Assembly (NCBI RefSeq): GCF_021390155.1 | Contig: NZ_CP089985.1 | Location: 5,157,001-5,221,000, forward strand | DNA length: 64,000 nt | Origin: Pseudomonas sp. HN11 | GTDB lineage: Bacteria > Pseudomonadota > Gammaproteobacteria > Pseudomonadales > Pseudomonadaceae | Direction of reading: 5' to 3' | Shown here: positions 20,572-30,459 of the stretch, one piece after another | Position numbering within the stretch: position 1 is the first letter of the stretch | Layout: every line of letters starts with the position of its first letter | The notes under the pieces: model-generated | Databases searched by the model: none | What the model was told of the DNA's origin: nothing | What the model saw: the letters and a program-made list of their open reading frames with translations, nothing else | Made by a program: the position numbers and the translations under genes

Positions 20572-20610
20572 TGTGGGAGCTGGCTTGCCTGCGAAGACGC
20601 CAGCCCAAAC
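20572..20610. repeat. Single degenerate REP element
   Basis: Contains TGTGGGAGCTGGCTTGCCTG followed by CGAAGACGCCAGCC. It resembles one half of the REPIN units in this window but lacks the inverted partner. Confidence 0.5.
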
Positions 20611-20627: not shown

Positions 20628-20935
20628 CTACACTCCCGCCGAATCATCCTCCTCCATCACCCCATTCGACAACATCCCATTCGCCAAATCATCCACCACC
20701 GCCTTCGCCATTTCCCCCAAATAATGCGCCGCCCAGGCAAAACGATCCGCGCCCGTATCCATCGCTGCATCCAATGCCAGCATTTTTGAACAGTGGAGAA
20801 GCTCGGAAGCATGCTCCAGGGCATCACGGATAGGCACGCCGGAATTGACGCGGAATAGGCGGTGGAGGTTGGGCTGTTTGCCGCAGGTGGAAAGGTGATG
20901 ACGCCGAGGGTTTTGTTGAGGGGTGGGTTGATCAT
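20628..20935 (-). pseudogene. DUF3077 family protein, frameshifted near codon 15
   Basis: DUF3077 proteins are small helical proteins of unknown function common in Pseudomonas. The ATG at 20935 has a perfect GGGAGG 6 bases upstream and reads MINPPLNKTLGVITF before leaving frame. The conserved body (STCGKQPNLHRLFRVNSG, GVPIRDALEHASELL, WAAHYLGEMAKAVVDD) continues in the +1 register to the stop at 20628. One missing T in the ACCTTTCCACC stretch would join them into a protein of about 100 residues. An in-frame GTG at 20942 could make a variant with a different N-terminus. The upstream ORF overlaps this start by ATGA. Either the gene is broken or this is a sequencing slip. Confidence 0.7.
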
Positions 20936-21006
20936 TGGGCACCTCCCAGGTGGGTGGAGGTACAGAGTGGGAAATTGCGAGGGTACGACCTGTCAGAAAC
21001 GCTCAT
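20932..21006 (-). CDS. Putative 24-residue leader peptide coupled to the DUF3077 gene
   Basis: A 25-codon ORF (starts MSVSDRSYPRNFPLC, ends GGAQ-stop) has a TAGGAG ribosome-binding site 8 bases upstream. Its TGA overlaps the DUF3077 ATG (ATGA), so ribosomes finishing here could restart on DUF3077. This mirrors icd upstream of ant in phages P1 and P7. Five bases of its Shine-Dalgarno are complementary to a loop of the C4-like RNA just upstream. No protein family is recognised, and its job may only be translational coupling. Not experimentally known here; inferred from layout. Confidence 0.5.
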   Translation of the reverse strand: MSVSDRSYPRNFPLCTSTHLGGAQ

Positions 21007-21060
21007 GGCTTTAGCTCCTAATGTCGAGAAGCTGCCACATTCGTTATCAGGCGAAAGGGT

Positions 21061-21135
21061 GGCAGCTGTGCGCAGGCTGATAAACCGGGACAATAGGAAC
21101 CCGGCAGGCCCGAAGGCCTCCCGCGCACAGCCGCC
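21061..21135 (-). ncRNA. C4-like antisense RNA element
   Basis: On the minus strand a 13-bp outer stem (GGCGGCTGTGCGC / GCGCACAGCTGCC, one G-U) encloses two hairpins: AGGCC-TTCG-GGCCT and CCGGG-(TTCCTATTGT)-CCCGG, followed by unpaired TTATCAG. This clover-like fold resembles the C4 antisense RNA family of phages P1/P7 and prophages. Its two exposed segments, CCTATTGT (21090-21097) and TTATCAG (21077-21083), are complementary to 21195-21202 and 21211-21217 upstream, and in part to the leader ORF translation start downstream. The family assignment is from memory and needs a covariance-model search. Confidence 0.6.
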
Positions 21136-21155
21136 ATAACACGGATGTGCGGACG

Positions 21156-21188
21156 CAAAAAAAGCGTCGGCATGGTGCTGGAGACGCT
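21156..21188 (-). terminator. Intrinsic terminator directly upstream of the C4-like RNA
   Basis: On the minus strand AGCGTC / GACGCT (21163-21188, 14-nt loop) is followed by seven T. It lies between the upstream C4-complementary segment (21195-21217) and the C4-like RNA, an arrangement that suggests attenuation. Confidence 0.6.
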
Positions 21189-21337
21189 TGAGCGCCTATT
21201 GTTCCACGGGTTATCAGGCCCGGTCACTGAATTTGCAGTGACGGTGGGAAAGTAGCTCAGAAGCGTGTGGTTCTAAAAGCTGGGATCTGTGGCGAGAAGT
21301 TTCCGATAGACAGGCTGAGGGTATCAATTCAAACAAA

Positions 21338-21730
21338 ATCGTAAGCGGTGTCGCCGATGAGGCGCTCCGGCTTGATGTCGAACTGCGCTTCGACCCGATC
21401 GATCATCGTTTTGGTGCTCTCGACTTCTGCGGTTCGATGAGCCGGTGTGGACTCCACATCCATGATCACGCCGTGCTCGGTATCGATCAGATAATTCGTG
21501 GAGTAAGCGTAGAAAGCAGGGCCGCCTGGAGCAGCCGTCGGCGGGCCTGAGGATCCGTCAGCGACAGGCGTTTCGGTAGCGTTTCTGCCAAAGCCTCCTC
21601 ATCGAGGCCTTCAAGGTACTCACGCACGGCGCGAGTGCTCAGGGCTGGATCGCTCCAGTTGATCTGTTCATCACCCGGTACGCCGCGCTGCCGACTCGCA
21701 TCCGCCTTGATGATGCTGGCGTCCACGGCA
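21338..21730 (-). pseudogene. Remnant of an IS1182-like transposase
   Basis: An internal piece of a DDE transposase: VDASIIKADASRQRGVPGDE and DPALSTRAVREYLEGLDEE, then after a one-base loss near 21540 the frame continues as YSTNYLIDTEHGVIMDVES and TKTMIDRVEAQFDIKPERL up to GDTAY. Both ends of the gene are gone. An IS3-family element is inserted about 20 bp upstream of the recognisable part. This is decayed and certainly inactive. Confidence 0.75.
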
Positions 21731-21751
21731 ATCGACCAGAAGCGGTCATTC

Positions 21752-23026
<1,275 letters not shown>

Positions 23027-24270: not shown

Positions 24271-25398
24271 ATGAGCACAAAGAACCCGATCAGCCGGCTC
24301 ACCATCAAAGGCTTCAAGTCCATCAAAAGCCTTGAAGACTTGCATCTGGGCAGCCTGAACGTGCTGCTGGGTGCCAACGGTGCGGGCAAGAGCAGCTTCG
24401 TTTCTTACTTTCGCATGCTCAGCGAAATGATGGATTTGCGTCTTAAAAAGTGGACGACCCAACAAGGCTCGGCGGACCGAATTGTCAGCTTCGGCGTCAA
24501 GGAAACTCAGCAGATCAGTTCCTATGTCCATTTTGGCTTGAACGGCTATGAGTTCGAGTTGGAACCGACCGTGGACGGTGACTTTGTTTTTTCCAATGAA
24601 CGGCTCTTTTTTGACGGCCCCATGTATGGCTCCGAGTGGATTCCACTGGGCTCCGGGCATCAGGAGACCAAGCTTAAAAAAGCCTACGACATCAAACAGT
24701 TCCAAGCCCCCTACAAAAACAATGTTGTAGCGTACTGCTACGAATCGATTTCCAGCTGGAAGGTTTTCCACTTCCACGACACCAGCGAAACCGCGAGCGT
24801 CAAACGCTACGGACCGGCTCATATCGACGACTATCTCCGTCCAGACGCGTCGAACCTGGCGGCCTATCTGCACCGCTTAGCCACCGAGACGCCTGAGGTC
24901 TATGACCAGATCCGAAAGACGATCCAACTGGCGATTCCGTTCTTCGACGACTTTGTGCTCAAGCCTGTGCGACTGGACACCCAGGAAGAATTGATCAACC
25001 TGCAATGGCGTCAGAAGGACAGCGACTACACCTTCTGGCCGAGCCAGCTCTCGGACGGTTCGATCCGTTTCATCTGCTTGGTAACCGCCCTGCTCCAGCC
25101 TGACCCGCCATCGACCATCATCATTGATGAGCCGGAACTCGGCCTGCATCCCTACGCCATCACCCTACTGGGTTCAATGCTGCGATCAGCCTCCACCCGA
25201 ATGCAGGTGATTGTCTCAACGCAGTCAGTGCCTCTGGTGAATGAATTCTCAATCGATGACCTGATCATCGTCGAGCGGGAAAAAGGTGCGACCGTCTTCA
25301 AGCGCCTTGACGAAGAAGCCTTCGAAACATGGCTGGACGATTATTCGGTAGGTGAGCTGTGGGAGAAAAACATTCTGGGCGGGAGGCCGCGTAAATGA
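24271..25398 (+). CDS. AAA/SMC-type ATPase of a putative two-gene defence module
   Basis: A 375-residue ATPase of the AAA_21/OLD-like class. Walker A is GANGAGKSS (residues 34-42) after the start ISRLTIKGFKSIKSL. An ABC-signature-like block is SQLSDGSIRF (258-267), Walker B is STIIIDEPELGLHP (281-294), and the switch region is VIVSTQSV (313-320). The middle (about 60-240) is the variable insertion typical of this class. The DUF4276 gene overlaps its end by 4 bp, so the two are translated together. ATPases of this type paired with TOPRIM-like partners act in abortive phage defence (PARIS, AbiL-like and OLD systems). That role here is inference from architecture and location. Confidence 0.8.
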   Translation: MSTKNPISRLTIKGFKSIKSLEDLHLGSLNVLLGANGAGKSSFVSYFRMLSEMMDLRLKKWTTQQGSADRIVSFGVKETQQISSYVHFGLNGYEFELEPTVDGDFVFSNERLFFDGPMYGSEWIPLGSGHQETKLKKAYDIKQFQAPYKNNVVAYCYESISSWKVFHFHDTSETASVKRYGPAHIDDYLRPDASNLAAYLHRLATETPEVYDQIRKTIQLAIPFFDDFVLKPVRLDTQEELINLQWRQKDSDYTFWPSQLSDGSIRFICLVTALLQPDPPSTIIIDEPELGLHPYAITLLGSMLRSASTRMQVIVSTQSVPLVNEFSIDDLIIVEREKGATVFKRLDEEAFETWLDDYSVGELWEKNILGGRPRK

Positions 25399-28003: not shown

Positions 28004-29158
28004 ATGCCAGAACGCTTTTACCCACCCACCGAAGAAGAGTTACGCAAACGACGCATCCTGACGCCGCAGCCGTCGCGGGTTCCGTATTCACCGGCTGTTG
28101 ATTTTTTCGAGCCATCCCCTGCCCCAGCCCCCACGCTGGCCAGACCTCCCGGTTGCGTCTTCATGAAGCCATGCCAACTGCCTGATGGCATCACTCATTA
28201 TTTCAACCCGGCCGGGTATGTGCCGTTGGAGCTGATCAAGGAATACGGCCACTTAAGCCTGCTGGGTGGGCGTGAGGTGGACAGCAGGGGCGGGGTTGCC
28301 TTGCGCAAGATCGGCGGCAGCACATTGCCCGCTGGCTTGGGTCAGTTGGCGTTGCGGTCGGCGGTTTGGGAGTCGGCGGCCACTGCTGTTGGATCGGTCG
28401 CCGGTGGCCTGCTGACGGGATTGGTGGCGCTGGCCTGGCCGTCCGAGCTGGGTGATAGCGCGCTCTACAGCGAGGAGCAGTTGCGTTCAATGCAACAGGC
28501 GCGGTCGCAGATGCGGTTACATATCGAGCAACGGGCGGACGGCACGCTCAAGGGGTATGGGTTTTACACGGGCAACCATGCCGATTGGCAAATGATTGAT
28601 GTGGTGCAGTTCCAAAACCGTGGCGATCAGTTTGTGGCGGATCTGGATGAAGGTGTAGAGCTGATCTGGACGCCCGCCGTTGATCCCAGTGACACGCTGG
28701 GGATTCCGCCATTGGAGGCTGCGCCACAAGCGCCGGTGATCTGGATTTATCCGCCGACGGAGAAGGCCGCGCAGATTCTGGTGAACCCGATTTATCCACC
28801 GGAGTATCGGGATTTTATTCTGGTGTTCCCGGTGGAGTCGGGGGTTCGGCCGCTTTATGTGGTTGTCAGTGTCAAGGCCGGGGATCACAAGTACCACAAG
28901 GCACCTAATACTGAACAAATAACCGGCTTTTCAGGCCTGATCAAAGCAAAACCCATGACTCCCAGACAGGGTGGTGCCGGGTTGAGGGAGCGTTGGATTG
29001 AGGAAAAAGGCCGGAGAGTCTATGAGTGGGACTCTCAACATGGGGAATTGGAAGTTTATCTAGCAAGTGATGGGAGCCATCTGGGTGCGTTCAGCCACGT
29101 AACCGGCGAGCAGCTAAAAGGACCGAAGAAAAAGCGAAATATCAGAAAATACCTGTGA
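28004..29158 (+). CDS. Colicin E3-type rRNase bacteriocin (S-type pyocin domain)
   Basis: Toxin that should cut 16S rRNA at the decoding site of competitor cells. The last ~90 residues closely match the colicin E3 cytotoxic domain: GLRERWIEEKGRRVYEWDSQ and HGELEVYLASDG, ending KKKRNIRKYL. The E3 catalytic set Asp/His/Glu/Arg is conserved with the same spacing as D343, H346, E350 and R378. Residues about 145-300 are an S-type pyocin (translocation) domain. The N-terminus has a Pro-rich linker (30-50) and a glycine-rich hydrophobic stretch (125-143). At 384 residues it is shorter than classical colicins or pyocins and lacks an obvious long receptor-binding coiled coil, so the delivery route is unclear. 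Its immunity gene follows after 7 bp. Confidence 0.92.
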   Translation: MPERFYPPTEEELRKRRILTPQPSRVPYSPAVDFFEPSPAPAPTLARPPGCVFMKPCQLPDGITHYFNPAGYVPLELIKEYGHLSLLGGREVDSRGGVALRKIGGSTLPAGLGQLALRSAVWESAATAVGSVAGGLLTGLVALAWPSELGDSALYSEEQLRSMQQARSQMRLHIEQRADGTLKGYGFYTGNHADWQMIDVVQFQNRGDQFVADLDEGVELIWTPAVDPSDTLGIPPLEAAPQAPVIWIYPPTEKAAQILVNPIYPPEYRDFILVFPVESGVRPLYVVVSVKAGDHKYHKAPNTEQITGFSGLIKAKPMTPRQGGAGLRERWIEEKGRRVYEWDSQHGELEVYLASDGSHLGAFSHVTGEQLKGPKKKRNIRKYL

Positions 29159-29165
29159 GGGCTAC

Positions 29166-29423
29166 ATGGGACTAAAAGTGAGATTGGAATGGTTCGACAG
29201 AACCACAGAGCAGCTACGTGGAGCGGAGGAGTCGGCAGACCTAAGAGACGACTACTCGGTTATTTCCGAGCTTGGGCTGTCGCCAGCCGAGGACATCAAT
29301 AACGGCATGTTTGAACTGCGCCGGGAGTGGCTAGCACTGATACAGACACACTTCTCTCATGAAATTGCTCTGTCAGAAAGCGATTACTTCATCGCGTTTG
29401 ATTACGAAGATACAAACGAATAA
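29166..29423 (+). CDS. Colicin E3/cloacin-type immunity protein
   Basis: An 85-residue acidic protein that should bind and block the upstream rRNase. MGLKVRLEWFDRTTEQLRG and the block INNGMFELRREWLALIQTHF, with YFIAFDYED at the end, follow colicin E3 immunity (ImmE3) along the whole length. GAGG five bases before the ATG gives strong initiation, and only 7 bp separate it from the toxin stop, so both are made from one message. Specificity for the upstream toxin is inferred from adjacency. Confidence 0.92.
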   Translation: MGLKVRLEWFDRTTEQLRGAEESADLRDDYSVISELGLSPAEDINNGMFELRREWLALIQTHFSHEIALSESDYFIAFDYEDTNE

Positions 29424-29447
29424 CACAAACTTCGAGAATTCAGCTTC

Positions 29448-30071
29448 ATGCGTAGACTGTCACTCACAAACAAAAAACTCCGCAACATCCCTAGACACCT
29501 CAGAGCCCTAACCCGCTGGGCAGACAGCTTCGAAGGCTGCTTTTACGAAGAGTTATCGTCGCCACCGGACTATGTAGATTTAAGAATCCCAGTTATTGAA
29601 AACCTTGTCGAAGGTAAACAAACTACACCAGACATTCAGACGCATTGCGCTCAACAGTTGATTAACGTAGCAGGCCACCTATTTAAAGCCCGGCCAGACG
29701 ATGCCCCTGAGTGCTGGATTGTCGCATGCATCATGGTCCCGGACATGTTCTCAAGCCGAGTCTGTGTCTACACCGACAAAGGCCGCTACCTCGGTCACAC
29801 CCAACCCTTTGACTATGAGTACTTCCGTCAAATCCGCATCACCGGTCGAAGCCTGGCTTGCGAATGGGGCTTGGTGGTTCCTCCAGGCCTACACGAAGTT
29901 GGCTTTCACTTCATCCACGAGGACGAAGAAGGAAACATCTTCGAATCAGAGCATTGGTACTTCGGTGAAGTCAGCACGACCGATGACGACCCTGACGCAG
30001 GGCGCTGGAAGTATCAAACCTTCAGGTCCTTCCAAGCGCAGCATCCGCATTTGTTTGGTCCGTCCATTTAA
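29448..30071 (+). CDS. DUF3916 domain protein
   Basis: A 207-residue soluble protein resembling the DUF3916 family (RRLSLTNKKLRNIPRHLRAL, CWIVACIMVPDMFSSRVCV, HWYFGEVSTTDDDPDAGRW). Function unknown. It is placed between two cloacin-type immunity genes, 24 bp after the first, with A+T-richer codons like the immunity genes. It may be an accessory or second immunity protein for another toxin once carried here; that is only inference. No signal peptide or membrane segment is visible. Confidence 0.65.
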   Translation: MRRLSLTNKKLRNIPRHLRALTRWADSFEGCFYEELSSPPDYVDLRIPVIENLVEGKQTTPDIQTHCAQQLINVAGHLFKARPDDAPECWIVACIMVPDMFSSRVCVYTDKGRYLGHTQPFDYEYFRQIRITGRSLACEWGLVVPPGLHEVGFHFIHEDEEGNIFESEHWYFGEVSTTDDDPDAGRWKYQTFRSFQAQHPHLFGPSI

Positions 30072-30177
30072 CCCGCATTTATCTCACTCTCCGTCCCGGA
30101 ACAACATCAGGTTTCCCAGTTGTGTCCTCACTAAAACTATCGCAATTACCGACAGAGAGGGGCGTCCAAAAATAGTG

Positions 30178-30459
30178 ATGAAAATCAGACTACGATGGTA
30201 CGAAAAGCACAGCAACGACTTGAAAGCGGATGAGTACTCAGCGGATATCGCAGACCCAGACAGTGTTTTTGAAGCATTGGACTTAGGCGAAGAGGCCGCA
30301 ATATATGCCGACGTATTCAACGTGCTGCCGAGTTGGATAACGATTATTCAGCCGTACTTTCAGCACACGATCGAACCCGACCGCCTCGACTATCAGATTT
30401 CCTTTCGCTATCAAGGCGCCTGGCCACCTCCGCCAAAGCAACTCAAAAAGGCGTCTTGA
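30178..30459 (+). CDS. Second cloacin-type immunity protein (divergent copy)
   Basis: A 93-residue protein with the same plan as the first immunity protein: MKIRLRWYEKHSNDLKADEY, an acidic middle, PSWITIIQPYFQHTIE and DYQISFRYQG, plus a Pro-rich tail. The two immunity proteins share only part of their residues, so this is an old duplication or an import specific to another E3-type toxin. No cognate toxin gene is next to it. The ATG at 30178 is directly preceded by a GTG; its ribosome-binding site is poor. Confidence 0.8.
   Translation: MKIRLRWYEKHSNDLKADEYSADIADPDSVFEALDLGEEAAIYADVFNVLPSWITIIQPYFQHTIEPDRLDYQISFRYQGAWPPPPKQLKKAS

Follow-up and report, generated by a model that had tools for sequence, protein, structure and literature searches.

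A probable C4-type antisense switch ahead of a DUF3077 gene in Pseudomonas sp. HN11, one of many such cassettes across Pseudomonas

Organization of the cassette in Pseudomonas sp. HN11

The window analysed here is a stretch of 64,000 nucleotides of contig NZ_CP089985.1 from Pseudomonas sp. HN11. Its minus strand carries, between positions 20600 and 21260, a compact cassette in which a c4-a1b1 element is followed in order by a terminator, a full C4 RNA, a 24-codon open reading frame and a DUF3077 frame (all coordinates of the cassette refer to the minus strand). A preliminary description of this DNA had placed target segments, a terminator and the leader ORF at positions that are correct to within a few bases. 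The Rfam covariance model for the C4 antisense RNA (RF01695), a check that the same description had called for, matches 21055-21141 with 86.9 bits against a cut-off of 45, and the c4-a1b1 target element (RF03163) is also recovered above its cut-off at 21203-21255 (53.8 against 46.7 bits).

Two loops of the C4 RNA, a' (21075-21084) and b' (21088-21100), have complementary segments on both sides of the RNA and in the right order, as had been proposed. Loop a' is complementary to a1 (CCTGATAAC, 21210-21218), which sits in the second hairpin's loop, and a2 (21043-21051) is an identical nonamer (CCTGATAAC). The targets of b' are b1 (GGAACAATAGG, 21195-21205) and b2 (ACATTAGGAGC, 21014-21024). The latter contains the Shine-Dalgarno sequence of the leader ORF and covers its ribosome-binding site ahead of the ATG at 21006, which bears out an overlap of complementarity and ribosome-binding site already seen in the preliminary description.

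An intrinsic terminator is located between the upstream targets and the C4 RNA, again as first described, with its stem and T-run at 21157-21188. The minimum-energy fold has this stem at its end and so shows the terminator; a simple scan with a loop limit of 8 listed instead a stem inside C4. Three segments can be distinguished around this structure, namely segment 1 (21191-21196), which has two bases in common with b1, segment 2 (21183-21188) and segment 3 with the T-run (21157-21168). Segment 2 can partner either segment 1 or segment 3, the two pairings being mutually exclusive, and in HN11 the isolated hairpins have energies of -7.3 (1:2) and -8.8 kcal/mol (2:3).

The leader ORF (20932-21006 including the stop) runs from an ATG at 21004-21006 to a stop at 20932-20934 that overlaps the next ATG as ATGA (20932-20935). 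Together with an internal Shine-Dalgarno sequence this overlap makes up GGAGGTGCCCAATGA (20932-20946), and similar junctions occur in related leaders. The order of a short target RNA, a terminator and then a leader ORF with an AUGA overlap is of the isrK type, and the payload is DUF3077 (PF11275), not an antirepressor gene. A possible -10 element, TACTTT (21249-21254), was placed by hand with TTTAGA 17 nt upstream of it (21272-21277). This candidate is based on a consensus (TTG...TA...T before a GTCGCTG hairpin) drawn from the 73 anchorable non-redundant loci among the 157 surveyed below; a simple promoter scan found no promoter at the HN11 cassette.

Relatives of the locus and the frame of the DUF3077 gene

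A scan of named genomes returned 36 relatives of the DUF3077 gene, every one titled Pseudomonas; many of the species among them are presumably members of the fluorescens complex. C4 was parsed in 29 of the 37 loci with HN11 included (28 of 36 relatives), and eight relatives had none by the search pattern. With targets in the relatives taken as the best duplex within short flanking stretches, loop a' differs between species across the 29 parsed loci and both of its targets change along with it. More specifically, close relatives carry an a' of the TTTATCAG, TTTCTCAG or TTTCCAG type, and the letters of a1 and a2 match accordingly, the TTTCTCAG type making a G-U pair at a1. Loop b' is identical in 20 of the 29 loci, and therefore few loci stand behind the co-variation of b at this locus; the best b1 match is weak or displaced in five parsed loci (L327, L338, L348, L351 and L353). 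An exact piece of a tRNA lies beside the cassette in HN11 and in five of the 28 parsed relatives (L329, L330, L347, L349 and L355), and BLAST of tRNA-Leu and queA against the stretches of 12 relatives, each only about 3 kb long, gave no match.

The succession of C4, leader and DUF3077, for which a survey had been suggested, recurs among these relatives. The leader overlaps DUF3077 by ATGA in 27 of the 29 parsed loci, HN11 among them, and it is 24 codons long in 25 of these 27 (in some loci as counted from an inner ATG) and 22 and 23 codons long in the others. The pN/pS of the leader peptide (codons 2-18) is 0.67, against 0.12 for the DUF3077 domain in the same genomes. Leader length and junction are thus kept while the peptide is loose and the domain tight, which is the profile expected of a coupling device.

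The claim that the stop of the leader overlaps the start of DUF3077 is not supported for the domain in HN11 itself. The ATGA and the internal Shine-Dalgarno sequence are kept at the end of the leader, but the ATG is out of frame with the domain. From position 20935 it opens 92 codons (20657-20935) that start with MINPPLNKTLGVITF and hold only this N-terminal motif, as present in intact relatives, before leaving the domain frame. The DUF3077 domain (PF11275, 100.2 bits against a cut-off of 21) is open in a different frame, with 104 codons from a GTG at 20942 (20628-20942). Relative to intact genes a one-nucleotide frameshift lies within 20886-20899, and Pseudomonas sp. W4I3 (L355) is likewise shifted by one nucleotide there, whereas 28 of the 36 relatives are intact over the aligned part (six are unaligned from the start and L361 has an internal loss). 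Because the ATG of the overlap does not share the frame of the domain, the HN11 copy may be weak, switched off, or using the GTG at 20942.

The HN11 copy could accordingly be a relic in which the RNA elements persist around a broken payload and which is now inactive. The frameshift between N-terminal motif and domain is common to HN11 and W4I3, the promoter scan was negative, insertion-sequence genes adjoin the cassette upstream and eight of the 36 relatives lack C4 by pattern, all of which would suit such decay; the RNA parts of the HN11 cassette nevertheless appear intact. Over 72 codons of the domain frame, 10.5 synonymous and 4.5 nonsynonymous changes separate HN11 from W4I3, and the resulting dN/dS of 0.11 is close to the median of 378 intact pairs (0.09), which suggests that selection acted on the domain through most of the divergence between the two strains. 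Decay of the whole cassette is on this evidence rather unlikely. The frameshifts would be either recent or separate, or else the domain is still made. A DUF3077 pseudogene in furfural-evolved P. putida was restored to frame by a one-base insertion, according to the available portion of PMC9630843, and given that case a DUF3077 gene that slips in and out of frame may be worth considering.

C4 cassettes across Pseudomonas

The HN11 locus is one among many cassettes, a fact that is not visible from the window alone. The HN11 genome contains 14 C4 RNAs, all above the cut-off, together with 17 a1b1 matches (eight above the cut-off) and five DUF3077 and 15 DUF6124 matches, some of these at the same places. 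Among 24 genomes, HN11 included, C4 is found in 17, with 268 copies in total and a maximum of 42 in one genome. A wider set of 119 Pseudomonas genomes, again including HN11, has C4 in 110 (above the cut-off in 109), the median being 13 over all 119; at least 20 copies are present in 45 of these genomes and at least 33 in 16. Outside Pseudomonas, C4 occurs in 19 of 144 genomes of the same order (1-6 copies) and in 5 of 142 genomes of the same class (1-3 copies), and 14 control genomes returned zero C4 in every one of these genome searches.

Genes downstream were surveyed for the best-scoring 157 of the 268 C4s, with all 14 from HN11 included. A DUF6124 or DUF3077 match lies on the strand of the C4 and no more than 800 nt downstream of it in 102 of the 157, and two more have one otherwise arranged nearby. 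Of the 55 listed C4s outside these 102, 53 have an ORF that starts 33-66 nt past C4, a count made without a control; the ORFs behind those 55 include a recurrent family that matches nothing in Pfam, as well as a Bro-N gene and leaders of prophage type. A start with a loosely defined Shine-Dalgarno sequence is located 38-63 nt past C4 in 151 of the 157 listed loci (likewise without a control). The first ORF has at least 62 codons in 120 of the listed loci and is shorter in 31; 24 of the 31 short ORFs overlap an ATG that opens at least 40 codons, and one of these 24 (L024) is an artefact of start choice.

DUF3077 and DUF6124 appear to form a single superfamily, judging by an alignment of the two families (hhalign 98.9%, E 2.6e-17). 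A structural model of a DUF6124 member consists of two helices (pLDDT 87.9, pTM 0.66), and searches of solved structures with the DUF3077 and DUF6124 alignments gave nothing better than E 0.09. A third recurrent small-protein family, of the ALFVDTTVPL...DGCDLLDVI type, is found behind C4 at L022, L032 and other loci, and the two members that were scanned had no Pfam match. At L044 and L045, also in Pseudomonas genomes, C4 precedes a 175-codon ORF, and residues 1-95 of the ORF at L045 match Bro-N.

Within one genome the loops are mostly distinct among the C4s listed. For the nine genomes with at least nine listed C4s, a b' 9-mer is common to between zero and six C4 pairs per genome, with a maximum of 6 of 231.

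Phage-type loci and the origin of the cassettes

A search of viral contigs with the C4 pattern yielded 85 stretches, and the 80 loci examined held 82 matches. Sorted by eye, they include many DUF cassettes and about 25 phage-type operons, in which a1b1, a terminator and C4 are followed by a leader that in most cases has 52 codons, often with ATGA, and by further small ORFs. The genes behind the four phage-type loci scanned match Bro-N (L252), P22_AR_N (L287), Toprim (L260) and a CHC2 zinc finger (L302). The operons at L260 and L302 lead to non-antirepressor genes, the CHC2 zinc finger at L302 being just below the cut-off.

Three phage leaders have counterparts in four long leaders of Pseudomonas genomes, at 56-78% identity, a level reached in 0 of 500 shuffles each. 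The shared operon head and this identity between leaders suggest that the cassettes most likely derive from phage or satellite immunity operons. Kinship of the 24-codon HN11 leader with phage leaders was also considered and is not claimed, since shuffles did equally well in 18, 145 and 43 of 500 cases.

It can be imagined that Pseudomonas copied a phage-type C4 head before small helical proteins, so that up to about forty mostly distinct locks per genome now form a library of phage or satellite sensors. An incoming a1b1-like RNA of a phage or satellite would titrate C4 and the small protein would then hinder the phage; if this is true, each RNA lock would be opened only by the matching RNA of phages or satellites that use similar locks. 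Such a role is improbable, even though an equal operon head stands before Bro-N, P22_AR_N or Toprim genes in viral contigs, long leaders are shared with phages as described above and the b' loops listed per genome are mostly distinct. Words of eight bases common to phage-type and chromosomal b' loops are uncontrolled, and no claim of loop sharing between phage and host is made from them.

The small proteins under linked antisense RNA and the many copies per genome also recall type I toxin-antitoxin systems, in which case C4 would be the RNA antitoxin and the DUF protein the toxin. Some phage-type loci have the same RNA head before an antirepressor, which points to a head for control in general and less to a lock on a toxin, and the toxin-antitoxin reading has a slim chance of being correct.

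Pairing of the loops with their own targets

Each loop was compared with the flanks of all loci in its own genome, for the 11 genomes with at least four listed C4s (150 loci; seven loci in five smaller sets were dropped). Pairing with the own target is far stronger than expected for both loops and both sides, with z values of -18.8 (a', upstream), -10.9 (a', downstream), -11.1 (b', upstream) and -18.9 (b', downstream), and 0 of 2000 permutations reached it in each of the four tests. Four far-flank controls gave |z| of at most 1.0 and four reversed-loop controls at most 1.9, two of the latter leaning in the same direction as the real loops (59 and 95 of 2000). In addition, the stem pairs of 147 distinct C4s are 96-100% standard, with many two-sided changes. 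The preliminary description had staked its interpretation on a match to the C4 model, on covariation in homologous loci and on joint variation of the complementary segments; all three are present, the second in the stems and the third in this permutation test as well as in the 29 parsed loci of HN11 and its closer relatives.

At the HN11 locus itself, b' ranks first of 14 against its own flank on both sides (b1 upstream and b2 downstream), with 15 of 1000 shuffles matching it in each case. Loop a' ranks third and ninth of 14 against its own flanks by energy (51 and 553 of 1000 shuffles) and is unremarkable by energy alone, yet it varies together with its targets in the relatives. These weak a' matches could be taken for chance, or for an ordinary terminator structure without antisense function, but the Rfam scores, the co-variation in relatives and the 150-locus pairing test leave that explanation a negligible probability.

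Four loci of the HN11 genome with DUF6124/DUF3077-type genes (L025, L028, L038 and L040) have an a1b1 element immediately ahead of the start codon, and no C4 was found there. These genes may be remnants, or C4s encoded at other places may control them; control in trans by one of the 14 HN11 C4s was examined and set aside, none being best for both sites.

Proposed mechanism

The reading preferred here, with a probability of about 0.72, is that the HN11 locus is a chromosomal C4-type antisense switch belonging to a Pseudomonas-wide paralogous family and working by the mechanism that follows. The C4 fold, the co-varying targets, the conserved leader length and junction and the alternative segments are supported by sequence; the promoter, transcription, processing, repression, attenuation and the role of the a1b1 RNA are inferred.

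A promoter just upstream of a1b1 would give rise to a single leader transcript. Where this transcript stops at the terminator it would leave a short, IsrK-like a1b1 RNA, and C4 would be excised from the RNA that reads through. Loops a' and b' of C4 would then pair with a2 and b2 and mask the ribosome-binding site ahead of the leader ORF, or in many paralogues that of the DUF gene itself, such that the payload is off by default. On b1, C4 would disturb hairpin 1:2 and free segment 2 for terminator 2:3, and in this way may limit its own read-through. The a1b1 RNA in turn would soak up C4, and when C4 is scarce the leader would be translated and the next start opened through coupling at the ATGA.

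The three-segment attenuator appears to be often present where the terminator is found. The terminator was detected by script in 51 of the 157 listed loci (4 after shuffling and 15 in an upstream control region), or in 48. The alternative 1:2 hairpin is present in 34 of 48 chromosomal T5-terminator loci against 6.2 expected and in all 24 phage-type T5-terminator loci against 1.7 expected, where the expectation comes from shuffling the bases before segment 2 and the phage-type loci were picked by their leader, some being near-identical. Hershko-Shalev and colleagues put forward a similar idea for STnc1160 together with one result that has no simple fit, as far as the consulted part of PMC4825925 relates, and in view of that result an effect of C4 on termination is possible in either direction.

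Comparison with known systems

C4 has been listed in Proteobacteria (Weinberg 2010, accessible in part). With c4-icd-ant of P1 and P7, in the partial accounts available, the cassettes share the C4 fold, the a' and b' loops, two-sided targets, b2 over a ribosome site and a leader that precedes the gene. The payload there is an antirepressor, whereas the Pseudomonas cassettes carry DUF3077 or DUF6124 and are chromosomal and multi-copy. The C4 RNA of P1 and P7 is processed by RNase P to about 77 nt (PMC5320573, accessible part).

A close layout is that of isrK-orf45-anrP in Gifsy-1, which, in the sections of PMC4825925 at hand, has a short RNA ended by a terminator, a read-through mRNA, a downstream processed RNA (STnc1160) that complements the short RNA, and a leader ORF with an AUGA overlap between its stop and the following start codon, the leader peptide being unconserved. 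The preliminary description had taken the combination of this layout with a terminator to be undescribed, a view that is not supported, as in Gifsy-1 the short RNA is followed by a terminator and the AUGA overlap is present; its observation is partly confirmed and its interpretation partly supported. Gifsy-1 differs in its payload, anrP, and the HN11 locus matches the Rfam isrK model (RF01394) at 21157-21242 below the cut-off (46.5 against 50 bits). STnc1160 was likened to P4 CI by its authors in the same sections and may itself be a C4 RNA. Gifsy-1 gives the mechanism proposed above a measured precedent, but translation there is activated by the short RNA (PMC4825925, same sections), which counts against that mechanism.

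P4 CI RNA with seqA and seqC is likewise excised from its own leader and works as an antisense RNA on the termination of transcription, as described in part of PMC4825925. Group 1 of the C4-like sRNAs in Acinetobacter baumannii comprises 21 similar copies in one genome with a variable a' loop, and reads suggest that they are processed; the portion of PMC5320573 available names no linked target gene for them, in contrast to Pseudomonas, where targets and gene adjoin each RNA.

A Pseudomonas-wide family of C4 cassettes, with their own targets and mostly a DUF3077 or DUF6124 payload, is absent from the open literature found. The same search, outside which most subscription papers lay, returned only the unrelated mention in furfural-evolved P. 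putida for DUF3077 and nothing for DUF6124. Many C4 cassettes per genome, each with its own target and gene, would allow antisense specificity, cross-talk and the domestication of phage control to be compared side by side, and they offer a regulatory clue for the DUF3077 and DUF6124 families.

Neighbouring genes in the window

Insertion-sequence genes lie just upstream of the cassette (21487-23026), with HTH_Tnp_1 and rve ORFs at 21792-22124 and 22133-23026 on the plus strand. Within the same stretch a 96-codon ORF on the opposite strand has no Pfam match and resembles a broken transposase. Further along, an AAA ATPase ORF (24271-25398) gives a strong PADLOC match to HEC-01A, a candidate defence system (487.8 bits), and an S-type pyocin-like bacteriocin gene is followed by a cloacin-immunity-like gene at 28004-30459.
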